From an uncultured bacterium (GTDB lineage: Bacteria; Verrucomicrobiota; Kiritimatiellia; CAIKKV01): a stretch of DNA of 64,000 nt. The notes under the pieces are model-generated. The model saw only the letters and a program-made list of their open reading frames with translations. It had not been told where the DNA came from and did no database searches. This document shows, piece after piece, positions 4,350-54,324 of the stretch (position 1 is its first letter; each line of letters starts with the position of its first letter). The stretch is from contig CALHRZ010000014.1 in assembly GCA_938038445.1 (NCBI GenBank), forward strand, positions 1-64,000, written 5' to 3'. The translations under genes were made by a program, and so were the position numbers.

Positions 4350-5207
4350 TTATTTTTCCTGGATCGTCAACAGATTGGGGAGGGGTCGGATAAAGGGAAT
4401 GCCGAATGCCCGATCCGATGGACTATTCAAGATAGCCAGGGAACCGTTGGCGCTGCGGGCTGCCATGATTGAAGATCCCCCTCCGTCCATGCGAATCGCA
4501 TCGCGAGCGCCCAGCTGTTTCATAAATTCCGCCAACTCACGGGAGGTCATTCCTTCGCTGATGCCCGGTTGTCGGCCATCCACAACGACCAGCCAAAGAA
4601 TCCGCCCATCGGGATTAGTCCCGATCCCGGTGAGTGGATTAAGCCGTTCGTCCTCCTGACGAGGAAGAATTTCACCGTTTCGGAGTATCACTTGGAAGCC
4701 TCCCCACCCTTCGACGATATCCGCATCAGGACTTGGATAGCCGATATGCACCCGGCCGCGGGAATCCAGCCAGAGGGAGGGCAAGCGAAGGTCAGGGGGG
4801 GACCGGATTTGGCCGGCCGAGGCCGCAAGCCCGGTGATTTCAACAGGCTGTCCAAGGCGCCATTGGCGATTACGGGCGCCTTGCGGATCGGGGAGGGCAT
4901 CCCAGGGATTGGCATTCACATACGCAATGACGGGTTTGTCTTTGACCATTTCACGGGGATCCCAAAGGCTGGCGGTGGCGCGGCCCGGCCCGTCAGGATC
5001 GGGACTGAGAACGGATCGCAACGCGATTCGCCGATTGGAAAGGTCGGCACGCAACACATGCACGCGGAGTGGCCTGGGCTCCTGGGCGACGTGAAGGGCA
5101 TAATGCAGACCAAAAGGGGCGAGCGGATCTGTCGGGGGGGTGTGGCTGTAGCAGCCGCCGAAGAGAAATACTAAAACGCTTGGAAGGGTTCGAGACATAT
5201 GGGACAT
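4350..5207 (-). CDS. Phosphodiester glycosidase (NAGPA/DUF2233) family lipoprotein
   Basis: This is a 285-residue exported protein whose N-terminus has a hydrophobic stretch ending in LFGGC, a lipoprotein signal with lipidated Cys19. The body carries the hallmarks of the family named for the mannose-6-phosphate uncovering enzyme: a LVVVDGRQPG strand, then GMTSRELAEFM, and the signature DAIRMDGGGSS near residue 240. Bacterial members act on sugar phosphodiesters or cell-surface glycans, but the substrate cannot be read from sequence. AAGGAG precedes the ATG. The gene lies 31 bases downstream of the FHA-MoxR gene on the same strand and may be the tail of that operon. Confidence 0.8.
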   Translation of the reverse strand: MSHMSRTLPSVLVFLFGGCYSHTPPTDPLAPFGLHYALHVAQEPRPLRVHVLRADLSNRRIALRSVLSPDPDGPGRATASLWDPREMVKDKPVIAYVNANPWDALPDPQGARNRQWRLGQPVEITGLAASAGQIRSPPDLRLPSLWLDSRGRVHIGYPSPDADIVEGWGGFQVILRNGEILPRQEDERLNPLTGIGTNPDGRILWLVVVDGRQPGISEGMTSRELAEFMKQLGARDAIRMDGGGSSIMAARSANGSLAILNSPSDRAFGIPFIRPLPNLLTIQEK

Positions 5208-40348: not shown

Positions 40349-41479
40349 ATGACATTTGCCGACCCTCCCACCGACCTCTTTCACGGCCCGGGAAATCCCC
40401 GCAATTCGGAAGGTTCTTTCGTGACGCTGAAGGATGGAAGGATTTTGTTTGTCTGGAGCCGATTCCAGGGTGAGAGCGGCAGCGATCATGCGCCTGCTGT
40501 GCTGGCGGCGCGGATATCCTCGGATGGCGGCCGCACCTGGCCGCCGGCAACGGAACGGGTGGCGGTCGAAAATGCGGAGGGGTTCAACGTGATGAGCGTT
40601 TCGCTTCTTCGCCTTCACGATGGGCGTATTGCCCTTTTCTATCTGCGCAAGGACTCCCTCGAACAATGTCTGCCGATGGTCCGTTTTTCCACCGACGAAG
40701 GGCATGCGTGGAGCGACCCGGTGTGTTGCGCGACATGGCGCGGCTATTACGTGGTCAACAACGACCGAGTGATCCAGTTGCGCAACGGTCGGTTGCTGGT
40801 GCCCGCTGCCTGGCACCGGACCTATCAGCGGGTCGGCGAATCGACGCCCGTTGGAATTGACAGAAGAGGCCATTTCACCGTGTTCTATTCCGACGACGGC
40901 GGGAAATGCTGGCAAGAGGGACCGGAATGCTGGGCATTGCCCAGCGGAATTCACAGCCTCCAAGAACCGGGCGTGATCGAACGAAATGACGGAACGATTC
41001 TCGCCTGGTTTCGAACGACTACCGGCCGCCAGTGGTGGAGCATCTCGCGAACGGGCGGCGAAACATGGACGCTTCCCGCACCGTGGCGTTTTCGTTCGCC
41101 GTGTTCCCCCTTATCGCTCAAACGCATCCCGTCAACGGGCCACTGGTTGGCCATATGGAACGATGCGGCATGGGCGGTTCGGCGATGGGGGGAGGCCAAA
41201 CGGCTCATTTGGGGACGCTTGTCGGATCAAAGCTGGGGCCGAACGCCCCTTGCCGTGTCGATCAGCCGGAACGATGGAAAAAGGTGGGGACATTCCCGGA
41301 TCATCGAGTCGGAACCTGACCATGGGTACTGCTATACCGCTCTCCATTTCACCGAGGATGCCGTCCTTCTCGCCTACTGCTGCGGCGGCGGCATGCAAAG
41401 TACTGTTTTGCAGGATTTGCGAATCCGCCGAATCCCTCTTCAGTGGTTTTACGAGGGACGGAATGATTTGACCGCATGA
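40349..41479 (+). CDS. Sialidase/BNR Asp-box repeat protein
   Basis: This is a 376-residue six-bladed beta-propeller protein of the sialidase superfamily. Five Asp-box turns are spaced along it: SSDGGRTW (57-64), STDEGHAW (114-121), SDDGGKCW (181-188), SRTGGETW (233-240) and SRNDGKRW (306-313). An RNSEGSF N-terminal strand supplies the first arginine. It has no signal peptide, so it is cytoplasmic like its divergent GH2 partner. True exo-sialidases carry an Arg triad and a Tyr/Glu pair; Arg-rich candidates are present, but the triad is not confirmed. Sialic acid or another acidic sugar is therefore only a plausible substrate. The end overlaps lacI by 31 bases. Confidence 0.8.
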   Translation: MTFADPPTDLFHGPGNPRNSEGSFVTLKDGRILFVWSRFQGESGSDHAPAVLAARISSDGGRTWPPATERVAVENAEGFNVMSVSLLRLHDGRIALFYLRKDSLEQCLPMVRFSTDEGHAWSDPVCCATWRGYYVVNNDRVIQLRNGRLLVPAAWHRTYQRVGESTPVGIDRRGHFTVFYSDDGGKCWQEGPECWALPSGIHSLQEPGVIERNDGTILAWFRTTTGRQWWSISRTGGETWTLPAPWRFRSPCSPLSLKRIPSTGHWLAIWNDAAWAVRRWGEAKRLIWGRLSDQSWGRTPLAVSISRNDGKRWGHSRIIESEPDHGYCYTALHFTEDAVLLAYCCGGGMQSTVLQDLRIRRIPLQWFYEGRNDLTA

Positions 41480-42522
41480 GCGCCGCAGGAGCGGCGAACG
41501 ATCAGTTTTCCGGGGACCCGGATGAGCGGAGTGTCGAACGCTTGATCGCGTTCCTGAATTCGTTCGAGAAGCAGTTGGATCGCTTCCTGGGCCATCTTTT
41601 CGAAATCCTGGGCAACCGTCGTCAAAGGGGAATAGGCATATTCACCAATGACGGCATTGTCGAACCCTGTCAGAGCAATCTCTTCCGGAACGCGCACCCC
41701 GGCCTCCGCACAAGCGGCTAAGGCGCCGATGGCCCAGTCGTCATTGCTGAACAGAACTCCATTCGGTCGGTCAAGACGCGCGAGGATTTGTTCCATTGCG
41801 GCCTTTCCATTGGCATAAGGCGACATGATGTCGTTCGGTTCCCCAAAAAAGGCAACCTGTGCCTGCGAAGCCGTGAGACCGGCTTTTCGAGCCGCTTGGC
41901 GAAATCCGGCCACCCGCTCGAGGGTAGGCCAATTCACCGCGGAAGAGTGTCGCGGAGGAAGCGTTGGCACGACCAGTTCCAGCGTTCGATGCCCCAACGC
42001 CGCCATGTGGCGGACCAGCATGGCCATCCCTTGCTCGGCATCCACGCGAACTTGGGCGACACCCTTCATGCGGACGCCGCCGAGCGCCACGACGGGTATT
42101 TTATGCTGCTGAAACCGTTCCAGTTCCTCGGGAGGAAATGTGGCCGGCGGATCAATCAAGATCAACCCTTCCACCCTCAGGTCAAGCATCGTGGCGCATA
42201 TGATCTGAATCCCGCTTCCGGACCACTCTGAATCGCCCGCTAAAGGACGATAACCGGCGGCGACGATTGCCCGGGCGGCCGCCTGACTTTTGAGCACGGC
42301 GATCTGAAGCAACCCCGCATGCTGGATCATTCCGATGATTCCGCTCCGACCGCGCCGAATAACCTGCGCGTAGCGGTTGGGGATGTAACCCATTTCCTGC
42401 GCAATCTTCTGGACACGCTCCCGCGTTTGAGCGTTATATCGAGGAGACTGCCGGTTCAAAATATGCGAGATTGTACTAATCGAGAGGCCGGCTTTTTCCG
42501 CAATTTGCTTTAATGTGACCAT
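41449..42522 (-). CDS. LacI-family transcriptional regulator
   Basis: This 357-residue regulator has a canonical N-terminal helix-turn-helix (about 2-24; TLKQIAEKAGLSISTISHIL) and hinge helix (PNRYAQVIRRG). A periplasmic-binding-like effector domain follows (GIIGMIQHAGLLQIAVLK, LRVEGLILIDPP, EIALTGFDNAVIGEYAYSPL). The DNA-binding part is intact. It lies beside and convergent with the sialidase-like gene and probably controls the divergent GH2/sialidase promoters via the operator-like site at 40273-40284. The effector is likely a breakdown sugar. Its own promoter is listed separately and predicts a leaderless transcript. Confidence 0.93.
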   Translation of the reverse strand: MVTLKQIAEKAGLSISTISHILNRQSPRYNAQTRERVQKIAQEMGYIPNRYAQVIRRGRSGIIGMIQHAGLLQIAVLKSQAAARAIVAAGYRPLAGDSEWSGSGIQIICATMLDLRVEGLILIDPPATFPPEELERFQQHKIPVVALGGVRMKGVAQVRVDAEQGMAMLVRHMAALGHRTLELVVPTLPPRHSSAVNWPTLERVAGFRQAARKAGLTASQAQVAFFGEPNDIMSPYANGKAAMEQILARLDRPNGVLFSNDDWAIGALAACAEAGVRVPEEIALTGFDNAVIGEYAYSPLTTVAQDFEKMAQEAIQLLLERIQERDQAFDTPLIRVPGKLIVRRSCGAHAVKSFRPS

Positions 42523-42558: not shown

Positions 42559-42594
42559 CAAGGAAATCTCATATGCGAAAACACTTGCGATTCT

Positions 42595-42776
42595 GAACAG
42601 GGTGTGCGATCTTATCGCATCCGTAGGGAAAACGGAAGTCCGTGAGAAACGGACGCGGTCCCGCCGCTGTAACCGGCTACTGGCCTTTTGACAGCCACTG
42701 TTTGCATGTGCAAATGGGAAGGGAAAGGGCCGGGTTAAAACCGGAAGCCAGAAGACGTTCCCAGCGGTGTTCAACC
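42595..42776 (+). ncRNA. Cobalamin riboswitch
   Basis: This is a structured leader of the B12-operon mRNA. Diagnostic elements appear in order: GGGAA at about 42626, CGGAAGTCCGTGAGAAACGG, GTCCCGCCGCTGTAA at about 42658-42672, a variable region, and the B12 box AGCCAGAAGAC (42746-42756). The element binds a cobamide and reduces expression of the downstream genes. The exact 5' boundary is approximate. A single element preceding eleven colinear genes suggests that the whole operon responds to intracellular B12. Confidence 0.93.
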
Positions 42777-42777
42777 C

Positions 42778-42796
42778 CTCTTTCGAAAGAAAAGAG
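42778..42796 (+). promoter_or_regulatory. Candidate anti-RBS hairpin of the riboswitch
   Basis: CTCTTT (42778-42783) can pair with AAAGAG (42791-42796), which abuts the GTG start at 42798. The perfect palindrome TCTTTCGAAAGA (42779-42790) is an alternative stem. Sequestering the ribosome-binding site this way would fit translational control; no terminator-like T-run follows. Confidence 0.4.
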
Positions 42797-42797
42797 A

Positions 42798-43688
42798 GTG
42801 AGTGTTCGCTTTTTTTCTTTGATGGCCAGTGTGCTTCTCGCTGCGACGGGCTGTCGCCGCGCACCCTTTCAGGACGCCGGTGAAGCCGCGAGCACGCCGC
42901 CCCGGCTTGTATCCCTCGCTCCGAACCTTACGGAAATCCTCTTTGCGGTCGGCGCCGGGGATCGGATTGTCGGCCGCACCGCGGCTTGCGATTATCCGCC
43001 GGAGGTCGAACGCATTCCCATCGTGGGCGACTTTGGCGCGCCTTCCTTCGAAAAATTGATCCAGTTGAAACCGACGGCTATTCTCTATGCGGACCTTGAA
43101 GATCGGACGCTCCCCGAACGGCTGCGTGCGGCGGGGCTTCAACCGGTTGGAATTCCTTGCCTCACGCTGGATGATATTTCCGCAGCGATGGAACAGATCG
43201 CAATCCTGGCCGGCCGGGAAGAAACTGGGCGAGCCGCTGCCGCCCAATTCCGGGAGAAGGTGGCGCAGGAACGGCGTCGAGCAGCGGGTTATTTGCGCAA
43301 ACCGCGCGTTTATGTGGAATATTGGGGCGATCCCCTCTATTCAGCCGGTCGGGGGTCCTTCGTCTCCGAACTGGTCGCGCTGGCCGGCGGGACGAATCTC
43401 GGGGATGAAATCGCCGCGCCCTATTTCCAAGCTTCCCCGGAGTGGGTTTTGGCGCGAGATCCCGAAGTAATTCTCTGTCTCTATCATCTAACCGACGGTT
43501 CACCTATCGAACGTATTCGTTCCCGCCGGGCGTGGCAGAATGTGCGAGCGGTGCGCGAAGGACGCCTTTGCGCCGATTTGGACGTCAATTGCATCCTCCG
43601 ACCCGGACCGCGCGTGTTGGAAGGCGTTCGACAACTTCGGCGGTGTCTCCAGCCTGATGACCAACAAGCTCCCCTCACTATCCCATGA
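42798..43688 (+). CDS. btuF: Vitamin B12 ABC transporter substrate-binding protein BtuF
   Basis: This is a 296-residue periplasmic lipoprotein of class III binding proteins (two lobes joined by a helix), which hands corrinoids to BtuCD. A short signal ends at LLAATGC (putative lipidated Cys19). The mature protein starts PPRLVSLAPNLTEILFAVGAG and continues with RTAACDYP, IPIVGDFG and FEKLIQLKPTAILY, the family's landmarks. A longer frame reaches 42642 but runs through the riboswitch, so the GTG at 42798 (AGAAAAGAGA upstream) is preferred; an ATG at 42822 would lose part of the signal. The end overlaps cobT (ATGA). Confidence 0.9.
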   Translation: MSVRFFSLMASVLLAATGCRRAPFQDAGEAASTPPRLVSLAPNLTEILFAVGAGDRIVGRTAACDYPPEVERIPIVGDFGAPSFEKLIQLKPTAILYADLEDRTLPERLRAAGLQPVGIPCLTLDDISAAMEQIAILAGREETGRAAAAQFREKVAQERRRAAGYLRKPRVYVEYWGDPLYSAGRGSFVSELVALAGGTNLGDEIAAPYFQASPEWVLARDPEVILCLYHLTDGSPIERIRSRRAWQNVRAVREGRLCADLDVNCILRPGPRVLEGVRQLRRCLQPDDQQAPLTIP

Positions 43689-44722
43689 ACTCCATCTCCA
43701 TCCCCCCGCTTGACCGCACGGCCATGGCGAAAGCCCGCGATCGGCATCGCCGCCTTACCAAACCCCCGGGCAGTCTGGGGCGGCTGGAGGAACTCGGCAT
43801 CTGGTTGGCGGGGGTGACGGGGCGCTGCCCGCCGCCGGTCCCGATGCGGAAGGCCGTGCTGGTGTTCGCAGCCGATCACGGTGTTGCAGCGCACGGAATC
43901 AGCATTGCACCGCCGGAGGTGACTCGGTTGATGACCCTGAATTTCGCGGCATCCGGCGCGGCAATTAATGTATTGTGCCATCAGGTCGGCGCTCGGATGC
44001 AGGTGGTGGATGTCGGAATTCTCACCGACCTTCCTCCTCAGCGGAGGTTGCTGATGTCGAAAATCCGTCGGGGAACGGCTGACCTTTCCGAGGGGCCCGC
44101 GATGACCCGCAAGGAGGCCCGGGAGGCACTTCGAATCGGTGCATCGTGCGTGGAACAGGAAATCGAGGCCGGTTTGGACCTTTTGGCGCTCGGGGAGATG
44201 GGAATCGGCAATACCACACCCGCCACGGCAATGATTTGCGCCTTGACAGGTGGTTCGCCACGGGAAGTTGCCGGCCCGGGAACGGGAATCGGAAAGGACC
44301 GGTTGGAGAAAAAGATCGCTCTTCTTGAAAAGAGCCTCGCCGTCAACCAACCCGATCCTTCCGATCCTCTGGATGTATTAACCAAGGTCGGCGGTCTGGA
44401 AATTGCCGCAATGGCGGGCGCCATGCGACGAGCGGCCGAAGCCCGCGTGCCCGTCGTTTTGGATGGTTTCATCGCCGGCGCCGCCGCCCTGGCCGCTGTA
44501 GGGATGGACCCGGCTGTTCGTGACTATCTGGCCGCCGGCCATCGTTCCGCCGAACCCGGCCACGAGAGGGTTCTTTGCCATCTGGGCATGAAACCGCTTC
44601 TCGATCTGGACATGCGTTTGGGGGAGGGGACCGGCGCGGCGCTCGCCATGCCGATCCTCGAGGCCGCGGCACGTATTTTGAGCGAAATGGCAACCTTTGA
44701 AGAAGCCGGGATTCCTCTGTGA
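43685..44722 (+). CDS. cobT: Nicotinate-nucleotide--dimethylbenzimidazole phosphoribosyltransferase
   Basis: This 345-residue cytosolic enzyme transfers ribose phosphate from nicotinate mononucleotide to a lower-ligand base such as dimethylbenzimidazole, giving alpha-ribazole phosphate. It is full length and carries the family landmarks: TKPPGSLGRLEELG (25-38), VFAADHGVAAHGIS (60-73), EMGIGNTTPATA (171-182) and the catalytic Glu314 in RLGEGTGAA. It overlaps both neighbours by four bases. The choice of base is not readable from sequence, and no BluB is in the window. Confidence 0.96.
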   Translation: MNSISIPPLDRTAMAKARDRHRRLTKPPGSLGRLEELGIWLAGVTGRCPPPVPMRKAVLVFAADHGVAAHGISIAPPEVTRLMTLNFAASGAAINVLCHQVGARMQVVDVGILTDLPPQRRLLMSKIRRGTADLSEGPAMTRKEAREALRIGASCVEQEIEAGLDLLALGEMGIGNTTPATAMICALTGGSPREVAGPGTGIGKDRLEKKIALLEKSLAVNQPDPSDPLDVLTKVGGLEIAAMAGAMRRAAEARVPVVLDGFIAGAAALAAVGMDPAVRDYLAAGHRSAEPGHERVLCHLGMKPLLDLDMRLGEGTGAALAMPILEAAARILSEMATFEEAGIPL

Positions 44723-45531
44723 CCGCTGGACTCTTCGCCCAAATCCGACGGGAAACGGATCGATTCCGCGCCGCCCTGTCCCTCCTCACCCGCATTCCAA
44801 TCGGACCCGTTCCCGAAGGCTCCATCATGCCTTGGGGTCAACTGGCTCCTTGTTATCCTTGGGTGGGCTTGTTGATCGGACTGATCCTCGCGGCTGCAGC
44901 GACCGCCCTGAATTGGTTCTCGCCCGGGACGCCTTTTCTCAATTCCATTCTCCTCCTCGCGCTTTGGATTGGCATCACAGGAGGACTTCATTTGGACGGC
45001 TGGGCTGATTGCGCGGACGGCCTCTTCACGCCCGTGCCGCCCGCCCGCCGTCTAGAAATCATGTCCGATCCCCGCCTCGGCGCGTTTGGTGTGATGGGCC
45101 TGTCGCTGCTGCTTTTGCTCAAGACATCCGCGTTGATGCACGGCATGGTTATTCTGATCGGGCGGTGGAACGCGCGAGGAATTGCCTTCGCCCTGATCCC
45201 GTTTCTTCTCGCTCCATTGGTCGGACGGTCGGCGGCTATTCTCGTGCTGCTTGATTCCGCGATCCCCACAGCCCGCCCTGGCGGGATGGGCGACTTCGCG
45301 CGTCGGGGCCTTCCCGCAAATAGGACCCTCCTTTCCCTCGGCGCGGCTTTGCTGACGTGTCTTTTTGGCCGGTGGAGGGGGATCGCCATGGCTCTCATCG
45401 GCACGGCCGTCGGTTGGGGATTCGCCCGCTGGGCCAAGGGGCGTGTGGGTGGAATCACCGGCGACGTGCTCGGCGGTGTCATTGAACTCGGGGAAACGGC
45501 GGCACTTGCCGCCGCGGTATGGGGGAACTAA
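44719..45531 (+). CDS. cobS: Adenosylcobinamide-GDP ribazoletransferase
   Basis: This 270-residue polytopic inner-membrane enzyme joins adenosylcobinamide-GDP with alpha-ribazole (phosphate) to complete the nucleotide loop. The conserved GGLHLDGWADCADGLF (about 94-109), followed by RRLEIMSDPRLGAFGVMGL, is the metal-binding catalytic region. Further hydrophobic spans continue to the C-terminus. CobT and CobU, which supply its substrates, are encoded on either side. No separate CobC phosphatase gene is seen, so this enzyme may make the 5'-phosphate product. Confidence 0.96.
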   Translation: MTAGLFAQIRRETDRFRAALSLLTRIPIGPVPEGSIMPWGQLAPCYPWVGLLIGLILAAAATALNWFSPGTPFLNSILLLALWIGITGGLHLDGWADCADGLFTPVPPARRLEIMSDPRLGAFGVMGLSLLLLLKTSALMHGMVILIGRWNARGIAFALIPFLLAPLVGRSAAILVLLDSAIPTARPGGMGDFARRGLPANRTLLSLGAALLTCLFGRWRGIAMALIGTAVGWGFARWAKGRVGGITGDVLGGVIELGETAALAAAVWGN

Positions 45532-45534
45532 CCC

Positions 45535-46329
45535 ATGCTTCGTCTGGGCGCTCCCTCTTATTTGATCCCAGCCGACCTCCTGGCGAATGTGGATTTTATC
45601 ATCGGTCTCGACGCCGGCATTTCGGATATCCAACTGCTCCTTTTTGAAAGCGATGAATACGGCACGAACTTCCCCGCGCCGGCCGTCATTCGCGAACTGA
45701 CCCAACGCGCCGCCGATCACAACCTCAGTTATTCTGTCCATTTGCCTCTTGACCTGGCCTTGTCCAACGCAAAGGACCGGCAACGTTCGGAAGCCATTAT
45801 GCGAAGAGCCATCGAAAGCACCCGGGCGCTGGATCCCATCGGGTACACTCTTCACCTTGATGGGAGCCTGCTTGCTCCGCCGTGGGGAGCTTGTTCGCAC
45901 ATGCCGATGAGCCTCCTCGAATGGCGATCGGCTGCGGCCGATCTGCTAGGTCGAGCCACGGAATGGTGCGGTGCGGCCGAGCGTCTCTGTGTCGAAAATC
46001 TGGAAGGATGGGACCCCGCCGCCTTCGAACCCCTTCTCGTCCAAACGGGCGTTTCGCGAACGGCCGATATCGGGCATCTGTGGGTAACAGGCTGCGACCC
46101 CGTCGTCACGTTAAAGTCCTGGCAGAGCGCGACCCGCCTTGTTCATCTACACGGGGTAGGGGAACGGGATCATCAGTCGCTCCTGCGCATGGATCGGAAC
46201 GTCGTCAAAGCGGTCACCCAATATCTCGCCGGGGAGTTCGACGGCGTCGTCACCCTGGAAATCTTCGAGATAACCGCGTTCCGGGAATCCCTCGATCTCG
46301 TGCGGGCTATCGAGGGCACACTGCCATGA
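45535..46329 (+). CDS. cbiR: CbiR-type cobamide-remodelling phosphodiesterase (predicted)
   Basis: This is a 264-residue TIM-barrel protein of the AP-endonuclease-2/sugar-phosphate-isomerase superfamily. The barrel shows metal-ligand-type residues on successive strands: VHLP (His69), TLHLDG (His107), CVENLEG (Glu154), ADIGHLW (Asp178, His181), HLHGV (His204, His206) and LEIF (Glu242). CbiR of Akkermansia muciniphila belongs to this superfamily, sits with cobT/cobS/cobU genes, and hydrolyses the phosphoribosyl bond of imported cobamides so that the lower ligand can be exchanged. The same location, size and fold make this the best assignment. A generic sugar isomerase cannot be excluded without alignment. 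It overlaps cobU by four bases. Confidence 0.75.
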   Translation: MLRLGAPSYLIPADLLANVDFIIGLDAGISDIQLLLFESDEYGTNFPAPAVIRELTQRAADHNLSYSVHLPLDLALSNAKDRQRSEAIMRRAIESTRALDPIGYTLHLDGSLLAPPWGACSHMPMSLLEWRSAAADLLGRATEWCGAAERLCVENLEGWDPAAFEPLLVQTGVSRTADIGHLWVTGCDPVVTLKSWQSATRLVHLHGVGERDHQSLLRMDRNVVKAVTQYLAGEFDGVVTLEIFEITAFRESLDLVRAIEGTLP

Positions 46330-46913
46330 AGCCGAAGAATCCGAGTCGGTTTCTATTCGTGTTGGGCGGAGCCCGAAGCGGAAAAAGCGCGTGGGCGCAG
46401 TGCGAAGCTCGCAAACGCGGGGGGCGTGCGGTGCTCTTCATCGCAACCGCGCTTCCCCACGATAAGGAAATGAAACGCCGAATTGCTCGGCACCGCCGCG
46501 ACCGGGCCGCCTTCGGCTGGGCAACATGGGAAGCCGTCGAGGGATCATTGGCCGAGGGGCTATCCGCAGTTTGGAAATCATCCTACCGCCTGATTCTGCT
46601 CGATTGTGCCACATTGTGGATCAGCCGTCTTCTATGCGAGGCCGGCGGATCCCGGACGGAAAAGGAAATCGAGACCCGAATCGAGATCGAGACTAAGGCC
46701 TTTTTAAGAGCATGGAAACAAACGATGGCCGATCTGATCATCGTGAGCAATGAAGTGGGAATGGGTCTCGTTCCAGAACGCCCACTGGGACGGCTGTTCC
46801 GCGATATCCAGGGCCGCTTCAATCAGCGCCTCGCGGCCGAAGCCGACGAGGTGGTGCTGTTGGTCGCGGGCCTTCCCCTTTGGCTGAAACGTCACCGAAA
46901 GGAATCCTCATGA
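46326..46913 (+). CDS. cobU: Adenosylcobinamide kinase/guanylyltransferase
   Basis: This 195-residue bifunctional enzyme phosphorylates adenosylcobinamide and then forms the GDP adduct used by CobS. The Walker A motif GGARSGKS is at 14-21. The guanylylated histidine lies in RRIARHRRDRA (His56). VSNEVGMGLVPE and RLFRDIQGRFNQRLAAEADEV complete the signature. The ATG at 46326 overlaps the cbiR stop; an open frame running further upstream lies inside that gene. The stop overlaps the receptor gene start (ATGA). Confidence 0.95.
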   Translation: MKPKNPSRFLFVLGGARSGKSAWAQCEARKRGGRAVLFIATALPHDKEMKRRIARHRRDRAAFGWATWEAVEGSLAEGLSAVWKSSYRLILLDCATLWISRLLCEAGGSRTEKEIETRIEIETKAFLRAWKQTMADLIIVSNEVGMGLVPERPLGRLFRDIQGRFNQRLAAEADEVVLLVAGLPLWLKRHRKESS

Positions 46914-48889
46914 AACGGATCAATGAGTATCGCCAAACCCTGGCGATCGCGTTGCTGAGTGCCGGCGTGCTCCGAGCGCAGACGGGCGAAGTGGTCGTCA
47001 CGGCAACGCGAGGATGGGCGGACCCGAACCGCGTGCCGGGCAGTGTGACGGTGATTAGCGGGGACGAAATCAACCGCGGCGGTTTCCGTGTGCTGCCGGA
47101 TGTGCTTCAAGATACTCCGGGTCTCTGGATTCGATCGCAGGGAGGTCCCTTGGCCGAGGTGAGCCTTCGAGGATCGGGAGAAAATACAATGGGCCGCGTG
47201 CTTGTTCTCCTGGATGGCCGCCGGCTCAACAATCCCGACATGGCTGCGCTGAACTGGCTCCAGATCCCCATGAACTCCGTCGAGCGTATCGAGGTGTTTC
47301 GAGGACCTCAATCCGTTCTCTACGGCGATTTTGCCGAAAGCGGGGTAATTCACATCCGGACACGGCCGGGAACCGAAGAATCGCGTGCGGACGCCTCCCT
47401 TGTCTTTGGCTCCGACCGAACCGCTATTGTACGGGGCGGTGCCTCAGGCCGGCTGCCGAAATTTCCCCTTTACGGATCGGCTCAGGGTGAATGGCAGACA
47501 ACCGACGGCTGGCGCGATCGTTCCGCGTACAAGGGCGGGGGAGCCGGCGGACGGTTCGGATGGGCCCCCACGCCTAACGCCGACCTTCAAATCAACGGTT
47601 CGTTTTACGCCAATGACTACGAACTCCCCGGCTGGTTGACCCGTTCCGAGATGGAACAAAACCCCCGCATGTCCCGGTTCCCCAGCGATGAAGCGCGATC
47701 CTGGAACGGTGCAATGGGTGGCGACTATCGCTTCGAGTGGGCGCAGGGGCCGCGGTTGGAGGTATCGACGGGATGGACCCGCCGCCGAACCGAATCGGAC
47801 ATGACGAGTTGGAGCGCATTCACCGACACTGATACCGATCTCTTTTCCATCCTGCCCCGCCTCTGGATCGCCTGGCCTTCCCATGGAACGGTCGCACACC
47901 GGACGTTGCTGGGCGCCGACGGCTACGTGGATCGGTTGAGGGTGAACCGCTACGCAGAAATTAGCCGGGGTGCTCAATGGATGACCGCAGAGCTCCAGCG
48001 AACGACAGTGGGGAGCTATTTCCGGCACGAGGTGGAAACAGGACCATACTGGATTTGGCACGCCGGGCTCCGATTGGAACAATCGCAGCTCGATGCGGAA
48101 GGGAACGCCGGCGGTCGGTCGGTGCTGGACGATGCCGCAACGCACGCGGGATGGGCTTGGGAAGTCGGAACCACCTGGGCGTTCGAAAGGGGCAGCAAAT
48201 TGTTTTGGCGTGCGAACCGCGTCTATCGCTATCCCATGCTCGACGAACAGGTCAGTTATTATGGGTACGGCACCGACGCCCTCTATGGGGACTTAGAGGC
48301 GGAAAAGGGATGGGCCACGGAAGCCGGATTGGAATGGCAACTAATCCCAACGCTGCAAGCCGGTGTCACCGCCTTCATCCTCGCCATGCAGGATGAGGTT
48401 GCATGGGACCCTGTGGCCTGGCGAAATGCAAACCTTGACCAAACACGCCGCGAAGGGTTGGAAGCCTGGGCCGAATGGCAGTGGAGCCGGTTCCTCATCG
48501 CACGCGGCGGCTATACGTTTACCGACGCGACCTTTACCGACGGGCCGAATGCCGGTCGAGAAGTGCCGCTCGTATCCCGGCATGTGGCGCAGCTCCGTTT
48601 CACGGCGCGATGGCCCCGCTGCCTGGAAACCCGATTCGCGATTCGACATGCTGCCTCCGCTTGGGTGGGAGGAGATTATGCGAACACACGCGAAAAAATG
48701 AACGCTTATACCGTGGGAGATGTGATGGTGCAATACCAACCGGAAGAACAGGCGTGGTCGCTTTTCGTGGCCGTGGAAAATGTCTGGGATGAACGGTATG
48801 CCACCCTGGCCTATCGGGGCTTCCCAGACGATGGGTATTATCCTTCCCCCGGACGTCAATGGCGGGCCGGTCTCAATTGGATGTTTTGA
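46910..48889 (+). CDS. btuB: TonB-dependent vitamin B12 outer-membrane receptor BtuB
   Basis: This 659-residue outer-membrane barrel imports corrinoids across the outer membrane. It has a signal peptide (1-24) and the TonB box EVVVTATR near the mature N-terminus. A plug domain follows (VPGSVTVISGDEINRGG, DVLQDTPGLWIRSQGG, VSLRGSGENT, RVLVLLDGRR). The barrel ends in the aromatic LNWMF, whose terminal Phe is the outer-membrane targeting residue. The substrate is inferred from the riboswitch-controlled B12 operon. The ATG at 46910 overlaps the cobU stop and has AAAGGAA upstream; a longer frame starts in cobU and is rejected. Confidence 0.93.
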   Translation: MKRINEYRQTLAIALLSAGVLRAQTGEVVVTATRGWADPNRVPGSVTVISGDEINRGGFRVLPDVLQDTPGLWIRSQGGPLAEVSLRGSGENTMGRVLVLLDGRRLNNPDMAALNWLQIPMNSVERIEVFRGPQSVLYGDFAESGVIHIRTRPGTEESRADASLVFGSDRTAIVRGGASGRLPKFPLYGSAQGEWQTTDGWRDRSAYKGGGAGGRFGWAPTPNADLQINGSFYANDYELPGWLTRSEMEQNPRMSRFPSDEARSWNGAMGGDYRFEWAQGPRLEVSTGWTRRRTESDMTSWSAFTDTDTDLFSILPRLWIAWPSHGTVAHRTLLGADGYVDRLRVNRYAEISRGAQWMTAELQRTTVGSYFRHEVETGPYWIWHAGLRLEQSQLDAEGNAGGRSVLDDAATHAGWAWEVGTTWAFERGSKLFWRANRVYRYPMLDEQVSYYGYGTDALYGDLEAEKGWATEAGLEWQLIPTLQAGVTAFILAMQDEVAWDPVAWRNANLDQTRREGLEAWAEWQWSRFLIARGGYTFTDATFTDGPNAGREVPLVSRHVAQLRFTARWPRCLETRFAIRHAASAWVGGDYANTREKMNAYTVGDVMVQYQPEEQAWSLFVAVENVWDERYATLAYRGFPDDGYYPSPGRQWRAGLNWMF

Positions 48890-48900
48890 AAGGTCATGCG

Positions 48901-49524
48901 ATGATGGAGATTATGGTACGGGGCGGTCCAATAATGTGGCCGCTGCTCTTCTGTTCGATCGCGGCGCTTACCGTCATTCTGGAGCGGGCGGTGTTCTGGA
49001 TTCGAGAGTCCCGCTATCAGGATTGGGGGCGGTTGGATCGGCTGCTGGATCTCGCGCAGAAGGGGGATTTCGATCGAGCGCTCAAGGAAGCGGCCGAAGC
49101 GGGCTGCGCGCCGACGCGCACGATTCGGGCGGGACTGATCCACCGGGAACACGGTTTACGGGAGGCGATGGAAGTGGCGGCCGGGGATGAAATCGCGCGC
49201 ATGAAAAAGGGAATGGCGATTCTCGATACCATCATCACGATGGCGCCTCTCCTGGGCATCCTCGGAACCGTCACCGGCATTATCAAGTCGTTCGATCTGC
49301 TTGGAACCATGCAGATCGAAGATCCGCGCGGCGTGGCAACCGGCATCGCAGAAGCCTTGTTGACCACGGCCGCCGGCCTCGTCGTAGCACTCGGCACCCT
49401 CCTGCCGTTCAACTATTTCGTCAGCCGAATTCAGCAGGAAACCCGTCGCCTCGAGCAAGTCGCCACCCAGTTCGAAGTGGCCTACCGAAAAGGATGCGCC
49501 CGTGAAAGTGACCAGCGGGTATGA
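48901..49524 (+). CDS. exbB: Energy transducer ExbB (MotA/TolQ/ExbB family)
   Basis: This is a 207-residue inner-membrane proton-channel subunit. Three spans are visible: about 9-28 (GGPIMWPLLFCSIAALTVIL), about 113-135 (MAPLLGILGTVTGIIKSF) and about 155-177 (AEALLTTAAGLVVALGTLLP). The third has the conserved TAAGL of ExbB/TolQ. With ExbD it forms the motor that powers TonB. GAAAGGT precedes the ATG at 48901, 11 bases after btuB. Confidence 0.94.
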   Translation: MMEIMVRGGPIMWPLLFCSIAALTVILERAVFWIRESRYQDWGRLDRLLDLAQKGDFDRALKEAAEAGCAPTRTIRAGLIHREHGLREAMEVAAGDEIARMKKGMAILDTIITMAPLLGILGTVTGIIKSFDLLGTMQIEDPRGVATGIAEALLTTAAGLVVALGTLLPFNYFVSRIQQETRRLEQVATQFEVAYRKGCARESDQRV

Positions 49525-49903
49525 AGAGCGAAGAGCGCGGATCGAATTGGTCCCCCTGATTGATTGCATGTTCCTGCTTCTTGTGTTCTTTGTCTATGCC
49601 TCGATGCGGATGACGGTCCTTCGGGGATTGCCGGTCCGGCTGCCTGCCGGAAGTGGTCCTGCCCAACCCCATGCCGTTGTGGTGACCCTTCGTGCCGATA
49701 ATACCTTCTGGCTCGATGACCGACCCTTACCGCTTGACGAAGCGGCGGTCGAGACCGCCCGTCGGGCGCAGAGGGAACAAAAGCCGGTCCTGATTTCCGG
49801 AGATCAAGCCGCGGAACTTGGGCCGGCGCTCGAACTACTCTCCCGCCTTCGAGAGGCGGGTATCGAATCGGTTTCCTTCCGCGTGCGCCGAGACATGCCA
49901 TGA
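49502..49903 (+). CDS. exbD: Energy transducer ExbD/TolR
   Basis: This 133-residue protein has a single transmembrane helix (about 17-35) carrying the proton-conducting aspartate in VPLIDCMFLLLVFF (Asp21). A short periplasmic TolR-like domain follows, with the typical LRADNTFWLDDRPL strand and LLSRLREAGIESVSF ending. It starts with GTG and overlaps exbB by 23 bases, a tight coupling that supports a fixed stoichiometry. It partners with ExbB upstream and TonB downstream. Confidence 0.94.
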   Translation: MKVTSGYEERRARIELVPLIDCMFLLLVFFVYASMRMTVLRGLPVRLPAGSGPAQPHAVVVTLRADNTFWLDDRPLPLDEAAVETARRAQREQKPVLISGDQAAELGPALELLSRLREAGIESVSFRVRRDMP

Positions 49904-50691
49904 GACGGGAAGGTCCTTCATGGGTTACCGCATGGGCGGTGTCCATGCTCTGCCACCTCGCCGCACTTGCGGCGGTTGGACAATGGATAAGCCGTCCGAC
50001 GCCGCGTCGCGCCGTCTCCCTCAGTTCTGAACTGTCGTTGGCCGCTATCGAATTCGAGGCTAAACCCCGGCCCAACGTCCTTCCCTCACCGGACGAAACG
50101 CCCCCGGCGCTCGAGACGCCGCATGAACCGTCCCCGCCACCCCCGCAAGAAAAAATAGAAACTCTTCCAGAACCCTTCACGCCGGTGGAACCTGCTCCAA
50201 TCGCTCCCCATCCAGAACCGCTCCTGACGGAGCCCAATTCTCCCGAGTCTTTGCCCCCTCTCTTGGCCGTCGGGTCACCGCTCACGCCCAGGGAGGAGCC
50301 CGCTGAGTGTATGAGAACGGGTGCCGTTCAAGAAGCAAATCATACGCCCGAAGCGATCTCTTCACAGCATTTTGCCCCCCCTCAAGGCGAAACGCCGACA
50401 GTCCGATCCACCCTGCCGGACCCCACGACTCTTCTGACCTCCATTCAACCCCGTTATCCACTCGGATCCCGTCTACGGGGGGAGGAGGGTCTGGTCGTGA
50501 TGCGGGCGCGTGTGCTCCCTTCAGGAACAGTTCGCTCCGTTGAAGTCGTTTCCTCCTCGACTTTTCCTGCGTTGGATGATGCGGCAAAACGAGCCGTTCG
50601 GAACGCTCGGTTTCGTCCGTTTGAGCCGCCAGAGCCGGAAAAAGAGGCGGAAGTGGAACTTCGAATCCGATTCGTGCTTAAGGAATATTGA
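49900..50691 (+). CDS. tonB: TonB energy transducer
   Basis: This 263-residue protein connects the ExbBD motor to BtuB. A short N-terminal anchor (about 9-28) leads into a long proline/glutamate-rich periplasmic linker (about 50-170, including PSPPPPQEKIETLPEPFTPV). It ends in a TonB C-terminal domain (about 180-263): SIQPRYPLGSRLRGEEGLVV, VRSVEVVSSSTFPALDDAA, RNARFRPFEPP. It overlaps exbD by four bases. A dedicated TonB inside a B12 operon implies a private energiser for this receptor. Confidence 0.94.
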   Translation: MRREGPSWVTAWAVSMLCHLAALAAVGQWISRPTPRRAVSLSSELSLAAIEFEAKPRPNVLPSPDETPPALETPHEPSPPPPQEKIETLPEPFTPVEPAPIAPHPEPLLTEPNSPESLPPLLAVGSPLTPREEPAECMRTGAVQEANHTPEAISSQHFAPPQGETPTVRSTLPDPTTLLTSIQPRYPLGSRLRGEEGLVVMRARVLPSGTVRSVEVVSSSTFPALDDAAKRAVRNARFRPFEPPEPEKEAEVELRIRFVLKEY

Positions 50692-50700
50692 GGGCATGAT

Positions 50701-51675
50701 ATGAAAGGCCGACTGTTCTGGATCCTATTGGCTGTTGGGACGATTACCGTTCCTCTGCTTTCGTTGATGACCGGCGCGGCAGGATTCGGATGGCCGACGG
50801 GAACAGAGGGTGGAGGAGGTCGCGCCCTGTTGATGTTGCGCCTGGATCGTCTGTGGGCCGCGTTGGCAATGGGGGCTGGCTTGGCGGGTGCCGGTGTCGC
50901 ATTCCAGGCGATGTTGCGCAATCCCTTGGCAGAACCCTATGTATTGGGAGTCAGCGGCGGCGCTTCCCTGGGCGCGGCAGGCGCCATGGCGCTCGGTTTG
51001 CTGGCCTCTGTATGGACCATTCCGCTGGCCGCATTCGCCGGCGGCGCACTGACGTTGGCGCTGGTCCTTCGCCTCGCCCGTGCAGGCGATGGGGCTCCGA
51101 CCCTCTATAGCCTTATTCTGAGCGGGGTGATTGTGAGTTCCATCTGTTCCGGCATGCTGATGTTCCTGGTGACGCTTGCACCTTCGGAACGGGTCCATTC
51201 GATTCTTTGGTGGATGTTCGGCAATCTTCAATTGCCCCACCGCCCTTTACTGGAAACCGGAACCGTTTTTCTGGCCCTCGGTTTGCTGGCGCTGTTTCTT
51301 CTGGCACCCGAACTCGATGCCCTGACGCTCGGACGTGAAACGGCCCATTACGTCGGGGTTCGAACCGAGCGCATCATTCCGATGATTCTTCTCCTCGCCA
51401 CCCTGATCGCAGCGATCAGCGTGGCCATCGGCGGGTTGATCGGATTCGTGGGATTGGTCATTCCACATGCCGTTCGACGCTTGGGGGGGCCAGGCCATCG
51501 CCGTTTGCTTCCGGCTTCCGCACTGGCGGGCGGTCTCTTTCTGGCGCTTTCGGATCTGATCGCGCGGCTGATTCTCGCGCCGCGCGAGATTCCGGTCGGC
51601 GTGATTACGGCGCTGGTCGGGGGTCCCTTTTTCCTCGCCATTTTGAAACGGCGGCAGACGGAGGATTCGGAATGA
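50701..51675 (+). CDS. btuC: Vitamin B12 ABC transporter permease BtuC
   Basis: This is a 324-residue FecCD-family permease with about ten hydrophobic spans. Family landmarks are RLDRLWAALAMGAGLAGAG, FQAMLRNPLAEPYVLGVSGG and the cytoplasmic loop GGLIGFVGLVIPHAVRR, followed by ISVAIGG. It dimerises and couples with BtuD. The class III transporter set is completed by BtuF at the head of the operon. It lies nine bases after tonB. Confidence 0.94.
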   Translation: MKGRLFWILLAVGTITVPLLSLMTGAAGFGWPTGTEGGGGRALLMLRLDRLWAALAMGAGLAGAGVAFQAMLRNPLAEPYVLGVSGGASLGAAGAMALGLLASVWTIPLAAFAGGALTLALVLRLARAGDGAPTLYSLILSGVIVSSICSGMLMFLVTLAPSERVHSILWWMFGNLQLPHRPLLETGTVFLALGLLALFLLAPELDALTLGRETAHYVGVRTERIIPMILLLATLIAAISVAIGGLIGFVGLVIPHAVRRLGGPGHRRLLPASALAGGLFLALSDLIARLILAPREIPVGVITALVGGPFFLAILKRRQTEDSE

Positions 51676-52457
51676 GCGCCCCGCTGGCCATCGAATGCCG
51701 TAACGTTGAGGCGGGATATGGAAATCGGACTGTCCTCCGCGGGGTCGATTGGCGCGTAGAAGAGGGGAGCATCTGTGGGCTTTTGGGACCCAATGGCGCC
51801 GGAAAAAGCACGCTCTTTCGCGTGGTCACGGGATTGTGCCCTTTCCGTAAAGGGGAAGTGCGGCTTTTCGGATGGCCGATCAGAGGGCTTCCGGCAAAAG
51901 ACCGGTCCCGGCTGGTGGGCGTGGTGCCGCAAGACATGGCGGTTACCGTCCCCTTTTCGGTCCGTCATTTCGTCCTCCTCGGTCGGACAGCCTCCCTCGG
52001 CCGCTGGCGCGGACCTGGGCGCCGCGATTGGCAGGCGGTCGAGGAAGCACTCGCATGGACCGATGGACAGGATTTGGCGGATCGCCCTGTAACCGAGTTG
52101 AGCGGAGGGGAGCGTCAGCGGGTCGCGGTCGCCATGGTGCTGGCACAGAACCCCCGGCTGATTTTGCTCGATGAACCGACGTCGCATCTGGATATTCAAC
52201 ATCAAGTGGAATTGTTGCAAATCATCCGCCGGATCAATCGGGAGCGGCGCACCACCATTGTGCTGATCAGCCACGACCTGAACCTGATCGCCAATTTCTG
52301 CCCGCGGGTGGTGCTGATGGATCACGGGCGGATCGTGGCTGATGGCCCGCCCACGGATGTGCTGAACGAGGAACGGCTGCATACCGTTTACCACTGCGCC
52401 ATCCGTATCCGCCAGGATCCGGAAGGCGGCTCCCTGACCCTTTTTCCCATCCTTTGA
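51672..52457 (+). CDS. btuD: Vitamin B12 ABC transporter ATP-binding protein BtuD
   Basis: This 261-residue ATPase of the FepC/BtuD class drives import through BtuC. Walker A is GPNGAGKST (about 38-46), the signature is LSGGERQR (about 142-149) and Walker B is LILLDEPTSH. The Q-loop is VPQDMAVTV and the switch histidine lies in LISHDLN. It overlaps btuC by four bases (ATGA) and ends the riboswitch-controlled operon; no terminator hairpin is obvious after it. Confidence 0.94.
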   Translation: MSAPLAIECRNVEAGYGNRTVLRGVDWRVEEGSICGLLGPNGAGKSTLFRVVTGLCPFRKGEVRLFGWPIRGLPAKDRSRLVGVVPQDMAVTVPFSVRHFVLLGRTASLGRWRGPGRRDWQAVEEALAWTDGQDLADRPVTELSGGERQRVAVAMVLAQNPRLILLDEPTSHLDIQHQVELLQIIRRINRERRTTIVLISHDLNLIANFCPRVVLMDHGRIVADGPPTDVLNEERLHTVYHCAIRIRQDPEGGSLTLFPIL

Positions 52458-52589
52458 TTTCCCCCCATCCCCAGGCAAACGTCCCGCGCATGGAAACGCG
52501 TCCCTCGTTCCGTATCCCTCCCTCGAATCCGCCCATGCATTTAAAATTGGTTTCGATCGGTGATGTGTGATAAGGTAACAGGCATTGCG
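52458..52589 (+). promoter_or_regulatory. btuD-umuD intergenic region with weak promoter
   Basis: TTGGTT (52547-52552) and GATAAG (52569-52574) with a 16-base spacer could form a promoter for umuDC. I found no CTG-N10-CAG SOS box, but the LexA-binding motif of this lineage is unknown. No hairpin-T terminator for the preceding operon is visible in this 132-base gap. Confidence 0.3.
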
Positions 52590-53039
52590 ATGTCCTTTTC
52601 AACATCCAATCCGCGTTTGACCGTGCTTGGAAAATATACGGCCGGCCGGAAAGTTCCCCTGCCGCTCGTAGCGGCCCGTATTTCAGCGGGGTTTCCCTCC
52701 GGCATGGATGACTTCATCGAGCGAAAACTCGATTTAAACGAACTGCTCATCCGTCACGAGGCCGCCACTTACTTCATCCGGGTCCAGGGCGACTCCATGA
52801 CGGGTGCAGGGATCCATGACGGCGATATTCTCATCGTGGACCGGGCCGAGGAACCTCGGCCGGGGCGCATTGTGATCGCTGTGATCAATGGGGAACTCAC
52901 GGTCAAACGCATTGCTCGCCGCAGCAAACGTCTCTTTCTCCAGGCGGCAAACGATCACTACCCGGAGATCGAAGTGACGCCTGAAACACCCTTCGAAATC
53001 TGGGGGGTTGTTCGTTACGTGATTCATTCTCTTGAATGA
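52590..53039 (+). CDS. umuD: DNA polymerase V subunit UmuD (S24 peptidase)
   Basis: This 149-residue LexA-like self-cleaving protein is activated by RecA filaments and then pairs with UmuC for translesion synthesis. The cleavage site is Ala33-Gly34 (ISAGFPSG), the nucleophile Ser69 (GDSMTG) and the general base Lys106 (LTVKRI). All are exactly nine residues later than in E. coli UmuD (24-25, 60, 97). It has no DNA-binding domain. The ATG at 52590 is preferred with AAGGTAAC upstream; the alternative ATG at 52563 would lengthen the N-terminus by nine residues. Confidence 0.93.
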
Positions 53040-53046
53040 GGCTTCC

Positions 53047-54324
53047 ATGAAGGCGCTGGTGGATGCCGACTCCTTCTATGTTTCCTGCGAACGGGTGTTC
53101 CGCCCTTTGTTGAACGGCCGTCCCGTCGTGGTCCTTTCCAACAACGACGGTTGTCTCATCTCCTGCTCGCGCGAGGCCAAAGCGCTGGGACTCCGCGTCG
53201 GCCAACCTTATTTCGAAGCCGCCGGACTCCTGACCCTTCATGGCGGTGAAGCCCTTTCCGCTAATTTCAGCCTCTATACCGACATGTCCGCCCGGCTCAT
53301 GCGGACGCTCGAGCGGTTCGCGCCCCGCGTGCAGGTCTATTCCATTGATGAAGCGTTTTTGGATGGGGGGAGCCGTCTGCCGACGGGAGGAGAGTGGGCA
53401 GACTGGGCAAGCGCCATTCGTACGACGGTTCGCCGCGATACGGGTCTTCCAGTATCCATCGGCGTCGCCCCTTCTCACGTGCTCGCCAAACTGGCGTGCG
53501 AAAAGCAAGCCAAGCATTCGGCAGAAGGCATCGGCATCTTGATAGATCCAACGGTCATCTTCCGGGCGCTGGAAGAAACGCCGGTCGAAGCCGTATGGGG
53601 CATCGCCGAGCGTTTGGGGCAGCGTTTGAAGCGCGCCGGCCTTTGGACGGCCGCCCAGTTTGCCCGCGCACCAGACCCCCTCATCCGCCGGTTAACTTCC
53701 CTCACGGAACTTCGTCTGGCTTGGGAACTGCGAGGAGTGCCGACTCTCGATCCGGGCGATATTCGGGCACCCCGAAAGACGATTTTCTGTTCCCGTACGT
53801 TTGCCGTTCCGACTCGGCGTTGGGAAGAATTACGCGAGGCCGTGGCCACCTACACTGCCCGGGCGGCCGAGCGGCTTCGGGCGCAACGGTCGGAAGCAGG
53901 TGCCGTCCGTGTAGCGATTCGCACCGGCCTGTTCCATCCCGATGAACCGTTTCATGGCGATGCCGCCTTCGTCCGCCTCCCCGCGCCTTCTGCCCACACG
54001 CCGACGCTCACAGCCGCATCCATTCATGCCCTGCAGACCATTTACCGCCCCGGTTTTGCCTATGCCCGCGCGGAAGTGTTGCTTGCTGAATTGAGTGATG
54101 CACGAACGCATCCGACAAACCTGTTTGACCCCGAGGACGAAGCGAAACGCGTGCGCAGCATCCGCCTGATGAATGCCATGGATCGAATCAACGCCGAGTA
54201 TGGACGCGATACCGTTTGGACGGCCATCTGTGGACGCGGGGTCCTCCGGCGGCTTCGGCAGGCGAACCGCTCCCCCCGCTACACCACCTGTTGGGAGGAA
54301 CTTCCGATTGCGCGGGCATCCTGA
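53047..54324 (+). CDS. umuC: DNA polymerase V catalytic subunit UmuC (Y family)
   Basis: This is a 425-residue error-prone lesion-bypass polymerase. The palm has [15 protein letters not shown] with the first metal aspartate and YSIDEAFLD with the second. Helix-hairpin-helix and little-finger regions follow ([33 protein letters not shown]). The C-terminal YGRDTVWTA is the usual tail of UmuC. The ATG at 53047 follows GAGG; an in-frame ATG at 53032 overlaps umuD and is less likely. The last 46 bases overlap the convergent anti-sigma gene. Confidence 0.94.

Follow-up and report, generated by a model that had tools for sequence, protein, structure and literature searches.

The window, the whole 64,000-nucleotide stretch of DNA that was analysed, contains a single full-length cobalamin riboswitch in an Rfam scan, followed on the same strand by eleven intact open reading frames in the order btuF, cobT, cobS, cbiR, cobU, btuB, exbB, exbD, tonB, btuC and btuD (Table 1). 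The riboswitch scores 83.1 bits against RF00174 (gathering score 31.5, E = 5.7e-19) and begins at 42588 in the Rfam alignment, slightly ahead of position 42595 given in the earlier note, which had correctly placed it at the head of the cluster. The eleven colinear genes claimed there are all present and are named here by NCBIfam and Pfam matches.

The close packing reported for these genes was also borne out, with all neighbours overlapping or lying at most 11 bp apart. Computed with the ExbB start at ATG 48901, the spacing is −4 at six junctions (BtuF-CobT, CobT-CobS, CbiR-CobU, CobU-BtuB, ExbD-TonB and BtuC-BtuD), +3 at CobS-CbiR, +11 at BtuB-ExbB, −23 at ExbB-ExbD and +9 at TonB-BtuC. Together these data support a cluster on one strand, headed by a riboswitch, whose genes cover import, hydrolysis by CbiR and reassembly of the nucleotide loop. 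The end of btuD is separated by 102 bp from the next open reading frame (start 52560). A terminator-like site within btuC (51590-51622) was discarded, as such sites occur equally often in shuffled sequences. The cluster is flanked by a LacI-family regulator (41449-42522, −), divergent from the riboswitch and about 65 bp away, and directly downstream by a umuDC-like pair (52560-54324, +) encoding an S24 peptidase (UmuD/LexA-like) and a Y-family polymerase with a DUF4113 domain.

Table 1. Features of the riboswitch-headed cluster, in window coordinates, with the family matches and motifs that identify them.
Feature	Coordinates	Strand	Evidence
Cobalamin (corrinoid) riboswitch aptamer	42588..42778	+	RF00174, full length 1-189
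Possible translational expression platform	42778..42830	+	Short hairpins; sequence inspection of window and L090
btuF-like substrate-binding lipoprotein	42798..43688	+	PF01497 (85 bits); GTG start, lipobox LAATGC
cobT, lower-ligand phosphoribosyltransferase	43685..44722	+	TIGR03160 (455 bits, cut-off 319)
cobS, AdoCbi-GDP ribazoletransferase	44719..45531	+	TIGR00317 (121 bits, cut-off 110); PF02654 (157 bits)
cbiR, cobamide-remodelling phosphodiesterase	45535..46329	+	NF041277 (216.2 bits, curated equivalog cut-off 105)
cobU, AdoCbi kinase / AdoCbi-P guanylyltransferase	46326..46913	+	NF004469 (175 bits, cut-off 161); P-loop GGARSGKS
btuB-like TonB-dependent receptor	46910..48889	+	PF07715, PF00593
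exbB, TonB-system energiser	48901..49524	+	PF01618 (107 bits)
exbD	49502..49903	+	PF02472 (77 bits)
tonB	49900..50691	+	PF03544 (65 bits); TIGR01352 (66 bits, above cut-off)
btuC-like permease	50701..51675	+	PF01032 (268 bits)
btuD-like ATPase, final cluster gene	51672..52457	+	PF00005 (109 bits)

The longest open reading frame for btuF starts at 42642, inside the aptamer, so the GTG at 42798 is probably the true start. Short hairpins between the aptamer and the first codons could cover the ribosome-binding region and this GTG, and a similar element (CUCUUUC..GAAAG..AGAG) lies upstream of the start codon in a sister genus (L090). In RNA folding, the hairpins near the start codon of the operon were not significantly better than those of shuffled sequences. 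No σ70-type promoter was found upstream of the riboswitch on the + strand. From the gene spacing and the aptamer we infer a single transcript and its repression by B12. Cobalamin riboswitches are known to respond to several corrinoids (PMC9600662).

Cobamide enzymes, importer and energiser

CobU proteins guanylate AdoCbi-P, CobT proteins activate the lower-ligand base, and CobS proteins join the two. The window CobT (455-466 bits) could be aligned with the CobT structure 1wx1, including the LGEGTGA motif. In CbiR the conserved His/Asp/Glu residues of the metal site are present, and H69, H107, E154, D178, H181, H204, H213 and E242 are invariant in a ten-member alignment; no solved structure related to CbiR was found by sequence. 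Members of the CbiR family cut the phosphoribosyl bond of many cobamides to yield AdoCbi-P and α-ribazole, with in vitro activity under anoxic conditions only (PMC7733943). CobT, CobS, CbiR and CobU all pass curated cut-offs, with scores that speak against chance matches, and their order is shared with the sister genus. The earlier proposal that the gene set combines import with removal of the lower ligand and reassembly is supported in this outline, but its mention of any cobamide and of a preferred base was too strong.

The transporter genes match general families (Plug, TonB_dep_Rec, MotA_ExbB, ExbD, TonB_C, FecCD, Peripla_BP_2 and ABC_tran), and for the btu genes heme or siderophore relatives score equally well. 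BtuF carries a lipoprotein signal whose lipobox is identical in the sister genus (L090); its best NCBIfam match is the BtuF model NF002894 (95 bits, below the cut-off of 234), and its closest solved structure is the vitamin B12-binding protein 5ysc. The receptor has both plug and barrel domains and finds its best solved relative in E. coli BtuB (8.5e-16), with a score for the B12-receptor model TIGR01779 (120 bits) that lies under the cut-off of 599.7 and is exceeded by that of the siderophore receptor model TIGR01783. The permease reaches 187 of the 334 bits required by the BtuC equivalog; among its solved relatives, FhuB and heme permeases are closer to it than BtuC. For the ATPase, the corrinoid model NF007082 is among the best matches, below its cut-off. 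Because all four proteins fall under the B12-specific NCBIfam cut-offs, the btu names rest on context, and their cobamide assignment follows from the riboswitch, the position around the cobamide genes and the recurrence of the arrangement.

All three subunits of a TonB-ExbB-ExbD complex are encoded, with their TonB_C, ExbD and MotA_ExbB domains. The membrane helix of ExbD (LIDCMFLLLVFF) contains an aspartate, and TonB has an N-terminal SMLCH motif (SxxxH), a proline-rich linker and a C-terminal TonB_C domain. In a small tree of eight sequences, the window ExbB clusters with the CbiR-linked ExbB of a genome from another family of the class (G124, L071; support 0.999) and not with its six own-genome paralogues, a grouping that suggests a lineage of energisers linked to the uptake of cobamides.

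Across the assembly, PF03544 matches no protein other than the window TonB, and the genome encodes further TonB-dependent receptors. That it is the only TonB of the genome was rejected, since contig C25 carries a TonB_2/TolA-like protein directly after ExbB-ExbD (L080:2843-3613, −), a second and different energiser, and two other ExbB-ExbD clusters include genes whose products have a TonB-like helix (S-x-x-x-H) at the N-terminus (L079:2272-3765, −; L078:6310-7686, +). The C-termini of the latter two are weakly squalene-cyclase-like or without assignment.

Cobamide use and a second riboswitch in the genome

The assembly (3.07 Mb, 34 contigs) is 92% complete, so that absences from it are provisional, and each genome-wide absence corresponds to one single-family search. 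A CobA-type adenosyltransferase is present on another contig; searches of the assembly with one family each gave no match for a PduO-type adenosyltransferase, a class II ribonucleotide reductase or CbiC, and for BluB all matches fell far short of the cut-off. B12-binding domains occur in a 212-aa methyltransferase-type corrinoid protein and in open reading frames of 549-690 aa, one of which, when scanned, proved to be a radical SAM protein; the B12-binding matches listed include no frame of MetH size. This gene content fits an organism that uses cobamides without making them and does not make 5,6-dimethylbenzimidazole through BluB. With no BluB above the cut-off, a dimethylbenzimidazole base would need an outside supply. 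Nor did the analysis identify where a lower ligand would come from, which counts against remodelling.

The only other RF00174 match in the genome lies on contig C15 (85746-85935, −). It is followed on the same strand by genes for a predicted lipoprotein of 102 aa and for a DUF4465 protein of 857 aa (L074:6693-9266, −; 173 bits) with an NTPAYF motif and an InlB-like repeat. DUF4465 domains bind vitamin B12 and have a conserved NTPAY/GTPAYF loop (PMC13398666). Since this riboswitch heads a protein of a B12-binding family, part of surface capture probably lies elsewhere, as a separate unit. The earlier description of one operon for capture, import, remodelling and reassembly holds for the import and remodelling genes, which are together, and probably not entirely for surface capture.

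In the second leader a strong hairpin (z = −2.95) precedes a U run, an arrangement that resembles a transcription terminator. Control may accordingly differ between the two loci, with a terminator-like leader in one and short start-codon hairpins in the other. A divergent gene for an ANKH-family membrane protein (L074:10149-11471, +) was considered as a target of the second riboswitch and rejected, because the minus-strand riboswitch faces away from it; a literature search found no papers on ANKH with a cobalamin riboswitch.

Recurrence of CbiR clusters and interpretation

A class-wide search found CbiR above the cut-off in 33 of 346 genomes. Cluster composition was counted in the 80 best (closest) CbiR loci from named other genomes. 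BtuB, BtuF, BtuC, CobT, CobS, CobU and CbiR occur in one same-strand cluster at 11 of the 80, many of them with a cobalamin riboswitch. ABC importer genes are within the cluster at 33 loci and BtuB at 15; the order CobT-CobS-CbiR-CobU is found at 37, preceded by BtuF in 15, and TonB is in the cluster in the sister genus only. Ten of these leaders and core aptamers served to build a riboswitch model, which matched 39 times in 98 sources, the window among them. Besides the window, matches lie somewhere in 36 distinct CbiR loci (of 97 scanned), several of which had supplied sequences for the model. Earlier work reported that 80% of cbiR genes adjoin cobamide genes and 25% adjoin transporters (Mok et al., PMC7733943). 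The statement that such functions are usually dispersed was therefore too strong given the 11 full clusters. The concept of the cluster is known from these recurrences, and the built-in ExbB-ExbD-TonB motor is the unusual part of the operon.

The locus is most probably an operon for cobamide salvage and remodelling that corrinoids repress, in a PVC-group bacterium (probably of the Kiritimatiellia) auxotrophic for cobamides. At low intracellular cobamide, the riboswitch would leave the leader open, and the BtuB receptor, its own ExbBD-TonB motor and the BtuF-CD importer would be made together with CbiR, CobU, CobT and CobS. CbiR would hydrolyse incoming cobamides to AdoCbi-P and α-ribazole; from AdoCbi-P, CobU, CobT and CobS would then form AdoCbi-GDP, activate whichever base is available and combine the two as a new cobamide. 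This rebuilt product would in turn close the riboswitch, stopping synthesis of CbiR and the importer and limiting destruction of the product. Within this scheme we infer the ligand specificity, the single transcript, the repression and the choice of lower ligand.

Plain salvage of cobamides and cobinamide, in which corrinoids are imported, cobinamide is completed and CbiR serves breakdown or turnover with the lower ligand unchanged, is an improbable explanation of the locus. It would need only CobU, CobT and CobS for cobinamide, and it agrees both with the lack of an evident new base, no BluB being above the cut-off, and with the action of CbiR on every cobamide tested, the rebuilt product included (PMC7733943). 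However, cbiR lies inside the loop-assembly genes, in the order conserved at 37 of 80 loci, and in E. coli, which has CobT, CobS, CobU and CobC, the CbiR of Akkermansia muciniphila supported remodelling and made further cobamides usable (PMC7733943). It is very improbable that BtuB-ExbBD-TonB-BtuCD is a general iron, heme or siderophore uptake unit under its own control and joined to a cobamide block. In its favour, siderophore and heme models fit the receptor and permease no worse than B12 models and in part better, and the window TonB is the sole PF03544 protein of a genome with further TonB-dependent receptors. Against it, no intergenic gap within the cluster exceeds 11 bp, the cobamide genes lie between btuF and btuCD, the block recurs in the sister genus without exbBD, Syntrophaceae cbiR clusters contain btuB too, and the receptor's best solved relative is BtuB.

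For the salvage-and-remodelling operon, it has been noted as unclear how A. muciniphila protects freshly rebuilt cobamide from CbiR (Mok et al., PMC7733943). A simple candidate answer is that one corrinoid riboswitch controls all the genes involved; CbiR, the importer and the rebuilding enzymes lie behind one such riboswitch here, so product-controlled shut-off is directly testable. A fuller version, which we regard as rather unlikely, is a self-limiting remodelling circuit in which the riboswitch prefers the rebuilt over the imported cobamide, so that CbiR is on only while the cobamide is wrong or too little, and in which uptake is independent of the cell's other energisers thanks to a dedicated ExbBD-TonB motor that evolved alongside the CbiR clusters of the class. 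The operon would be best used to test whether control by the riboswitch keeps CbiR from breaking down its own product. With its built-in motor it is also a compact candidate cassette for cobamide import and remodelling; otherwise it adds one more lineage to those in which this known kind of cluster occurs.

Relation to known systems

The closest counterpart is the operon of a sister genus in the same family (PVC group bacterium MiH-14oct19-188; G005, L054/L090), where a riboswitch (79.9 bits) heads btuF-cobT-cobS-cbiR-cobU-btuB-tonB-btuC-btuD as in the window, with proteins 34-63% identical. Unlike the window, it has no exbB-exbD between btuB and tonB. In the genome from another family of the class (G124), ExbB, ExbD, TonB, CbiR and CobU are consecutive.

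Clusters of Syntrophaceae and Smithella (L095, L100, L112, L131, L144, L158, L159 and others) have the order btuC-btuD-btuB-btuF-cobT-cobS-cbiR-cobU. They share with the window their functions, the btuF-cobT-cobS-cbiR-cobU core and a cobalamin riboswitch ahead of btuB, whereas btuC and btuD open the cluster, with the riboswitch between btuD and btuB, and TonB, ExbB and ExbD were not found within 10 kb. One of them (L112) has two cobalamin riboswitches, before btuC (2733-2914, +) and before btuB (4877-5054, +).

In the btu loci of Bacteroides (BtuB-BtuG with BtuFCD), cobalamin riboswitches likewise regulate an outer-membrane receptor, an ABC importer and surface proteins that bind B12; as described, these loci are without CbiR, unlike the window (PMC10404256, PMC13398666). 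In the window's genome, by contrast, the DUF4465 protein is encoded at a locus of its own.

The cbiR locus of A. muciniphila (Amuc_1679; Mok et al. 2020, PMC7733943) belongs to a PVC bacterium that cannot synthesise cobamides de novo, as also seems to hold for the organism of the window. As in the window, CbiR adjoins cobT, cobS and cobU, and transporter genes are adjacent. The A. muciniphila locus additionally has cobDQ and cbiB, whereas the window has btuB, exbBD, tonB and btuFCD in the same cluster behind a riboswitch.
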